Assembly (NCBI RefSeq): GCF_014192335.1
Contig: NZ_JACHXU010000009.1
Span: 124,001-188,000 of the forward strand
Origin: Aporhodopirellula rubra
Lineage (GTDB): Bacteria; Planctomycetota; Planctomycetia; Pirellulales; Pirellulaceae
Length of the DNA: 64,000 bases
Direction: 5' to 3'
The position numbers and the translations under genes are program-made. Positions 49,700-51,087 of this stretch are shown piece after piece (position 1 is the stretch's first letter; every line of letters starts with the position of its first letter). The notes under the pieces were generated by a model. That model saw only the letters and a program-made list of their open reading frames with translations, ran no database searches and was not told the origin of the DNA.

Positions 49700-50377
49700 T
49701 CAATCCATCCCGAGATCCTCGATGAACCGTGCGGTGAGAACGATCTCGGAAGCGTCGACTCCGAGTGCGTCAACCAAAACCGGGCGTAATTCCGCCAACA
49801 CATCCTCGGCGGTGTTGAGATTCAAGTGTTTGGTCGCAAATTCGGTTTGAGTTGCGTAGCGTGCCAGGGCACCAAACGTTGATAATCCGTCCGGCGGTAC
49901 TTGCCGAAACCCGACCGTTGCCGAATGCAGAAACCACGATCCCATGGCCGCCAGTGGCAAGATATCCGTGTTTACGGTGAATGCCGACCACATGGCGAAA
50001 AGGAACAGCAACAACACTGCGACGACCAGCAGTTTCCTCAGCCACGGTGGACGACGCAGCGCACGTGGCGATGCGTCTTGAAGGTCTCCGAGCCAGCTCC
50101 AAAGCTGTCTTCGCTGGGATGGATTCAAGACGTCCACAACACGAGTGCGGGTTCGAATGCGCAAACCATCGTCAGCGGCAATTTCTCGGACACGTCGACG
50201 AAGATTAAAAAAAGACGCCAGAGAAGGGCAAACTGCAGAACGCGTTGCATCGATCCGTTTCTGGATCACGGCCACCAGATCGCCGACCGTACGGACGCGT
50301 TCGGACTCGGTGCTGCGAATCGTGATGCCGAAGTGATCCTCGACATCCATCAAAATCTCAACCGCATCGAGTCCCAT
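49700..50377 (-). CDS. Membrane protein with separated ACP-like half-domains
   Basis: 225 residues. The N-terminal 43 residues (MGLDAVEILMDVEDHFGITI and on) align with the second half of acyl carrier protein, from the residue after the modified Ser; Gly stands at the Ser position. One transmembrane segment follows at about 113-135. The last ~38 residues (EDVLAELRPVLVDALGVDAS then RFIEDLGMD) align with the first half of ACP and stop just before the Ser. So the halves occur in swapped order. A phosphopantetheine Ser is absent. Start ATG at 50377 has GGAG six bases upstream. It lies 21 bases after the hydrolase gene, an operon. Confidence 0.75.
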   Translation of the reverse strand: MGLDAVEILMDVEDHFGITIRSTESERVRTVGDLVAVIQKRIDATRSAVCPSLASFFNLRRRVREIAADDGLRIRTRTRVVDVLNPSQRRQLWSWLGDLQDASPRALRRPPWLRKLLVVAVLLLFLFAMWSAFTVNTDILPLAAMGSWFLHSATVGFRQVPPDGLSTFGALARYATQTEFATKHLNLNTAEDVLAELRPVLVDALGVDASEIVLTARFIEDLGMD

Positions 50378-50398
50378 GGCTGCTCCATTGAACGCAGG

Positions 50399-51087
50399 TC
50401 ACGTGGCCTGCGTCTTGCTGATTTGATCGATCACGTCTCGAGTGAACGCGTTGACTTCGGAGGGATGCGTCAACGAGATCACGTGGCCGCCGCCTTTGAC
50501 GACCGTGTCGGGTTGAGTGTACCGAATCGGCAGCGTCCAATCACGATCGCCGTGGATGTGAAAACCGGGCAATCGAACTCCGGCTGATGACGCCAATCGA
50601 GAATCCGAGCGAGTGACCATTTGAAGACGGCCGGATCGGAACCACGAAATTGCTGAACGAGCCCCCACGAAAACGGAGCGATACGGCGGAACAACGTTAT
50701 CGCCAGCGGCGCCGCGAGCCACTGCAACATACGGATCGGCAACCAGCCGACGAGCGTCTTCAACGGCCGAGCCATTCGCCCGTACAGCGGCAGTTCGTCG
50801 GGCGATGCGATACTGCCGATCAAGAGCACCGCGCGAGCATCCAAGTGCTGGGCAACGTGCAATGCCATCATGCCGCCGAACGAAGCGCCCCCAACGACAC
50901 ACGGACCATGAACACGCAAGTCCTCGGCGATGCGTCCGGCGTATGCATCGAGGGTCTCATTTGAAACCGGCGTCGGCCACGGCGGAACGATGAGTTGCGG
51001 GAACGCGATCTTTTGCGGTACGAAGATATTCGCGTCCGCGGCGAGGCCGGGAAAGAGGATCAGCGGAAGCGTTTTATCGTTGGTCAT
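50399..51087 (-). pseudogene. Alpha/beta hydrolase with a one-base frameshift
   Basis: Start ATG at 51087. The first part reads LPLILFPGLAADANIFVPQK and contains the nucleophile elbow GASFGG near residue 68. It then continues to WRHQPEFDCPVF. Here the frame is broken: as read, it runs on with unrelated residues to 50479, while the -1 shifted frame resumes with HIHGDRDWTLP and the closing KGGGHVISLT, holding the catalytic Asp and His. Adding one base between 50560 and 50561 restores a 229-residue enzyme ending QISKTQAT at 50399. The total length, 689 bases, is one short of a multiple of three. Either a true mutation or a sequencing error. Substrate unknown. Confidence 0.85.

Follow-up and report, generated by a model that had tools for sequence, protein, structure and literature searches.

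A stretch of 64,000 nucleotides from the planctomycete Aporhodopirellula rubra (contig NZ_JACHXU010000009.1; hereafter the window) encodes a 225-residue protein whose sequence identifies it as a circular permutant of the acyl carrier protein (ACP); residues 3-45 correspond to the second half of the ACP domain and residues 188-225 to the first. Structure prediction and profile comparison identify the stretch between the halves (about residues 51-180) as a second ACP fold with a membrane hairpin, and this nested anatomy is well supported. Few small proteins are as conserved or as well studied as ACP, and no natural circular permutant of ACP is known to us. A search of literature listings likewise returned no description of such a protein and no natural ACP circular permutant. 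A preliminary description of the window had noticed the swapped halves. That observation is confirmed, and the interpretation then placed on it is partly supported.

In the native protein, residues 3-38 match positions 32-67 of the Pfam PP-binding profile (PF00550). The C-terminal 40 residues, searched on their own, match positions 2-30 at E 0.023, short of the curated cut-off, so that only position 31, at the serine, is absent between the two half matches. Joining the halves C to N changes the PP-binding E-value from 2.1e-6 to 2.3e-11. NCBIfam ACP models also match the native protein, the best at 8.2e-15 in two stretches, under their curated cut-offs; TIGR00517 (acyl_carrier equivalog) gives 47.0 bits against a cut-off of 70.45. 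The halves are swapped relative to the normal ACP helix order, and a full-length match to PF00550 and TIGR00517 appears only after ring closure.

The same arrangement recurs in a family of proteins. A genome contig search gave 174 relatives among 359 pattern matches, and 80 were kept. The 78-member set used here consists of the window protein and 77 of these loci; L066, L086 and L103 were dropped as interrupted, split or off the contig. The search patterns included MGLD, which biases the start of proteins in that set. An ACP model was made from 40 ordinary ACPs from the fetched loci, and each family protein was joined head to tail with itself. Self-joined, the window protein contains a single gapless ACP domain of 64.8 bits covering model positions 3-74 of 75, compared with 30.6 bits for its best native match. 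All 78 members, the window protein included, have an ACP match across the junction, and in 68 of them it covers 85% or more of the model. The median gain over the native best match is 31.8 bits, and the least is 14.7. In shuffled controls, the junction was spanned in 2 of 78 proteins when the C-terminal 40 residues were shuffled and in 6 of 78 when the N-terminal 44 were. An earlier three-sequence model likewise gave 78/78, with 9/78 in its control. The initial proposal of a circular permutation without the phosphopantetheine serine is supported, and the arrangement is conserved across phyla.

Comparisons from the family towards ordinary ACPs locate the opening point. The family profile aligns with ACPs in the Protein Data Bank (PDB) as two pieces omitting one residue, in both alignments shown (2ehs 3-34/36-75; 1x3o 2-38/40-79). 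In six of six genomes it matches the ordinary ACP gene as two pieces 3 bases apart, and the omitted codon was read in four of these genomes, where it encodes the serine of GADSLDTVEL. A further split pair, in G581, has pieces 18 bases apart.

Both chain ends lie at this serine. Counted from Asp221 in the DLG motif, the C-terminal stretch has five residues in 75 of the 78 members, four in two and six in one, and a stretch of five stops one position short of the ACP serine. The last 38 residues had been read as a first ACP half ending in EDLGMD right before the modified serine, and the 75 members that end one residue short agree with this. The C-terminus was absent from the search patterns; thus, the shared end is independent of the search. 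The serine that would receive 4'-phosphopantetheine in the DSL motif is absent, and, with Met1 removed, Gly2 aligns with the serine column. Gly2 is present in 78/78 members, a set picked partly by the MGLD pattern. A set of 35 proteins was found without that pattern; it includes the window protein and several of the 78 members, and some of its N-termini come from a separate reading. Among the 30 of these that have the second half, 25 start with Met-Gly, one of them from a GTG codon, and L151, L182-184 and L188 do not. Of the other five, L152 and L155 have no second half, L156 and L160 are cut short and L161 belongs to a sister family (see below). The cut point varies in L182-184, a Bacteroidota branch whose two chain ends lie several residues upstream of the usual place, and L183 has Asp-Ser near the place of the ACP serine (register by eye). 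The C-ends of L150 and L151 lie about three residues later than usual and that of L210 one residue later, and L158-159 have a degenerate C-end.

No hidden ACP half was found within 240 bases upstream and downstream of the 78 members, translated in three frames on each side and compared with ACP and family pieces. The clear matches in these flanks are tandem paralogues, beside L117 and L110 only, and three others are weak (E 0.23-0.61). A wrongly assigned start codon was considered and rejected: 50 of the 78 members reach an in-frame stop within 40 codons upstream without another ATG, GTG or TTG. The start of the remaining 28 rests on conservation, and a Shine-Dalgarno-like four-base motif is found in 45 of the 78. 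In the window gene, an in-frame stop 8 codons upstream of the ATG, together with a GGAG motif, makes a backward extension of the reading frame hardly possible, and the stop codon directly follows EDLGMD.

The helices of the inner domain run in the normal order, and the position aligned with the ACP serine holds no conserved serine. A Foldseek search of the PDB returned nothing at E 0.001 or below. In a second look with VIA-align, the inner domain matches solved ACPs, and EmbB-AcpM2 entries are among the structural matches, as is 6bug, which we take to be DltC. On average, inner helix II is basic, in contrast to the acidic helix II of ACP; Arg89 occurs in 53/78 members and Arg or Lys at position 90 in 60/78, and 22/78 are not net positive. 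Cys50 is found in 75/78 members and in 10/10 sister proteins. The preliminary description had placed one membrane helix between the halves. A membrane segment does lie there, but the ACP fold around it had been missed, and the number of helices depends on the method, with one by hydropathy (residues 116-132) and two in the AlphaFold2 model (111-134 and 139-153). By hydropathy, 56 of the 78 members have two segments, eight have one (window included), four have three and ten have none. Those without any segment comprise L124 and nine Bacteroidota proteins, each 197 residues long, and the hairpin is thus common but dispensable.

The reading that we favor, with a probability of about one half, is that the window protein is an unmodifiable ACP mimic, usually tethered to the membrane, that docks ACP-dependent enzymes. 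Asp4, Glu7 and Glu13 are present in 78/78 members and correspond to Asp38, Glu41 and Glu47 of AcpP. The LVM patch is largely kept, and helix II of the outer domain is acidic, with a mean net charge of -4.2. The window gene is under purifying selection, with a ratio of nonsynonymous to synonymous substitution rates (dN/dS) of 0.13 against the nearest relative, L002, and of 0.09 and 0.20 in the halves. For several pairs this ratio is saturated or rests on few changes; L083-L084 gives 0.63 on a dS of 0.03, with 1.22 in the C-half, and L064-L065 gives 0.29. Helix II of ACP is reported to be the recognition element for SpoT and fatty acid enzymes (PMC3340395). Because the recognition face is kept under purifying selection and the attachment serine is absent, a docking mimic is the simplest explanation.

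The outer ACP begins at the start of helix II and finishes just before the serine, which leaves the chain ends at the site that bears phosphopantetheine in ordinary ACP. In most members a hairpin follows inner helix II, an arrangement in which the two ACP folds would lie on one side of the membrane, presumably the cytoplasmic one. The outer domain would present its acidic helix II to ACP-recognizing enzymes, and the protein would dock, position or compete for them, at the membrane in most members, with no acyl chain carried. The membrane topology, the enzyme docking and any regulatory result are inferred. The basic inner helix II may face lipid or bind ACP.

The weakest link is the end-to-end packing, as we infer that both chain ends pack as one ACP fold within a single chain. 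In the AlphaFold2 model of the window protein, residues 191-225 have block means of the predicted local distance difference test of 94-98, and a single chain of the hairpin-free relative L101, a 197-residue protein of Spongiivirga citrea, has a predicted template modeling score of 0.82. Long-range couplings were computed from 119 sequences (an effective number of 86). Of the ten strongest, four link the two halves, a class that makes up about 8% of all pairs, and the strongest, L9-F218, is one of them. Over the top 150 couplings, however, half-to-half enrichment is only 1.6-fold. The outer ACP of the same mimic might alternatively form between chains, giving dimers or head-to-tail chains in the membrane. 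The open chain ends would permit this, and the second half of L086, a separate 42-residue open reading frame (ORF), would need joining in trans. However, the score of the L101 single chain and the 109-residue L207, which has the halves and a linker and suits intrachain packing, make assembly between chains rather unlikely.

A working carrier with a new attachment point is a doubtful alternative to the docking mimic. In it, the free amine of Gly2 (after Met1 removal) or Cys50 would replace the serine and hold an acyl or other group. Gly2 sits exactly on the serine column and is frequent in both sets (78/78, and 25/30 without the pattern), and Cys50 is conserved in members (75/78) and sister proteins (10/10). 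However, no chemistry or enzyme is known to us for such a linkage here, five relatives that have the second half are without Met-Gly (L151, L182-184 and L188), the ends of L182-184 are shifted, and Cys50 is part of the inner domain. We give equally little credence to a carrier or switch with its ring opened at the active site, in which the N-terminal glycine, its amine at the serine position beside the C-terminal carboxylate, would be the functional group of a nested double-ACP membrane protein.

It is less likely still that the protein senses ACP or acyl-ACP, with the basic inner helix II binding acidic ACP and the outer domain reporting. The charge contrast between the two helices II and the basic residues at positions 89 (53/78) and 90 (60/78) would suit a sensor. 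However, the basic helix adjoins the hairpin, where it may do no more than face lipid head groups, 22/78 members are not net positive there, and Pfam scans of members and neighbors revealed no signaling domain or conserved neighbor. Two decayed half domains flanking a membrane segment, the alternative raised in the preliminary description, would fit the absent serine and the few relatives that appear broken or split (L066, L086, L103, L156 and L160) but are highly improbable given the low dN/dS overall (0.13) and in both halves, the exact ends in 75/78 members and the invariant surface acids.

A sister family in planctomycetes (L211-L215, L219 and L161) bears on the origin of the permutation. 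Like the window family, these proteins have an inner ACP-like domain with a hairpin and a conserved Cys, alongside a serine-less ACP-like domain (serine absence by eye). Unlike it, the latter domain is whole, in normal order and N-terminal, and no first half follows the inner domain. The sister N-domain matches the outer domain with a profile probability of 78.7 over 77 columns, compared with 27.4 in the wrong order and 1.5 for the best of 20 shuffles; its probability against the ordinary-ACP model is just 31.9. The simplest path would be permutation of a two-domain ancestor by duplication and loss, and the double inserts of L040 and L043 and the split L086 fit a modular history. L040 and L043 have 430-460 residues and, read by eye, carry two consecutive inner hairpin domains flanked by the outer halves. 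An in-frame stop in L086 (3893-4585) separates the second half, 42 residues long, from a longer ORF that has a start codon of its own. L207, on the minus strand, is an insert-free frame of second half, linker and first half, possibly a damaged gene. Sister genes sometimes lie two close together (L212, L213 and L219).

By record title, relatives come from planctomycetes, Bacteroidota (Chitinophagaceae, Flavobacteriaceae), Verrucomicrobia, beta- and gammaproteobacteria, Geobacter relatives and others. Most members are about 200-245 residues long, compared with about 80 for ordinary ACP. A search free of the start bias (A3) used residues 46-225 only. In the window's class, 70 of 148 genomes match at E 1e-5, and about 20 hold family members; the other matches are mostly limited to the C-terminal part, as is typical of ordinary ACPs, and a few are sister proteins. 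In three other phyla, 3/240, 3/198 and 2/299 genomes match at E 1e-12, the known center genome counted in each, and in the phylum of L111 about 5/198 genomes match, again counting the known center genome. No plasmid copies were found at E 1e-5. Outside Planctomycetota, the gene is sporadic and has probably spread by gene transfer.

Compared with type II AcpP (TIGR00517, PRK00982; PF00550), the window protein has two halves that together match the profile end to end, an acidic helix II and the same fold in its inner part. It differs in its swapped halves, its ends at the serine site, the missing serine, and the internal second ACP fold with its usual hairpin. EmbA/EmbB-AcpM2 and DltB-DltC also hold an ACP fold at the membrane; there, a separate ACP binds a membrane enzyme, whereas in the window protein it is the ACP fold itself that contains the membrane part. 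The mitochondrial ribosomal protein mL50 (PF10501) has a domain with an ACP-like fold and no carrier function. We know of no permutation or membrane part in mL50, and PF10501 gives weak matches in 2/78 members (best E 0.0035). At E 0.01 the 78 members match seven Pfam families, and DUF1493, a serine-less ACP-like family, is not one of them.

If the reading is true, a conserved permutant opened at the catalytic serine would mean that the ACP surface is used for docking apart from carrying. The permutant also offers a direct test of what ACP-recognizing enzymes read. The family is a clear case of nested domain duplication with permutation; nature also offers a sister family in normal order and variants that are split or lack the hairpin or the insert. 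The curated models that match it (PF00550 and the NCBIfam ACP models) carry the name acyl carrier protein, a misleading label for a protein that has no attachment serine. The coordinates of the gene, its domains and its upstream neighbor are collected in Table 1.

Table 1. Features of the permuted ACP gene and its upstream neighbor, in window positions.
Feature	Position	Strand	Basis
Whole gene, nested double-ACP membrane protein, 225 aa	49700..50377	-	ORF, profile matches, relatives
GGAG, ribosome-binding-site-like, 5 bases ahead of ATG	50383..50386	-	Sequence
Outer ACP second half, residues 1-47 (helices 3-16, 22-27, 31-47)	50237..50377	-	Pfam PP-binding 32-67; AlphaFold2 model
Gly2 codon, on ACP serine column	50372..50374	-	Family alignment
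Inner ACP-like domain, helices I and II, residues 50-108, with Cys50, Phe56, Arg60, Trp93	50054..50230	-	Alignment, model, structure and profile comparison
Cys50 codon, start of inner domain	50228-50230	-	Alignment
Membrane hairpin inside inner domain, residues 110-158	49904..50050	-	Hydropathy (one segment) and model (two helices)
Inner ACP-like domain, last helix region, residues 161-180	49838..49897	-	Model, structure comparison
Outer ACP first half, residues 188-225, EDLGMD end, one residue short of serine site	49703..49816	-	Profile, junction and alignment
Upstream alpha/beta-hydrolase (thioesterase-like), frame interrupted, not a conserved partner	50399..51087	-	Profile, locus comparison

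Gene neighborhoods point to no conserved operon. Clustering of 884 mechanically called neighbor ORFs gave no wide cluster, the largest occurring in 8 loci, and among 97 of 115 neighbor ORFs (130-700 aa, within 400 bases) compared with Pfam, no family appeared in more than three. With no recurring neighbor gene, no particular pathway is supported. The link to an acyl-hydrolase-like gene drawn in the preliminary description proves weak, as such a gene is seen only beside the window gene, in G008 (L002) and at one Phycisphaerales locus (L081), with many loci represented by only 1.5 kb of flank, and is frame-broken in the window. In G008, the hydrolase has one 236-residue frame; the frame change that breaks the window copy could be a sequencing error or a recent loss.
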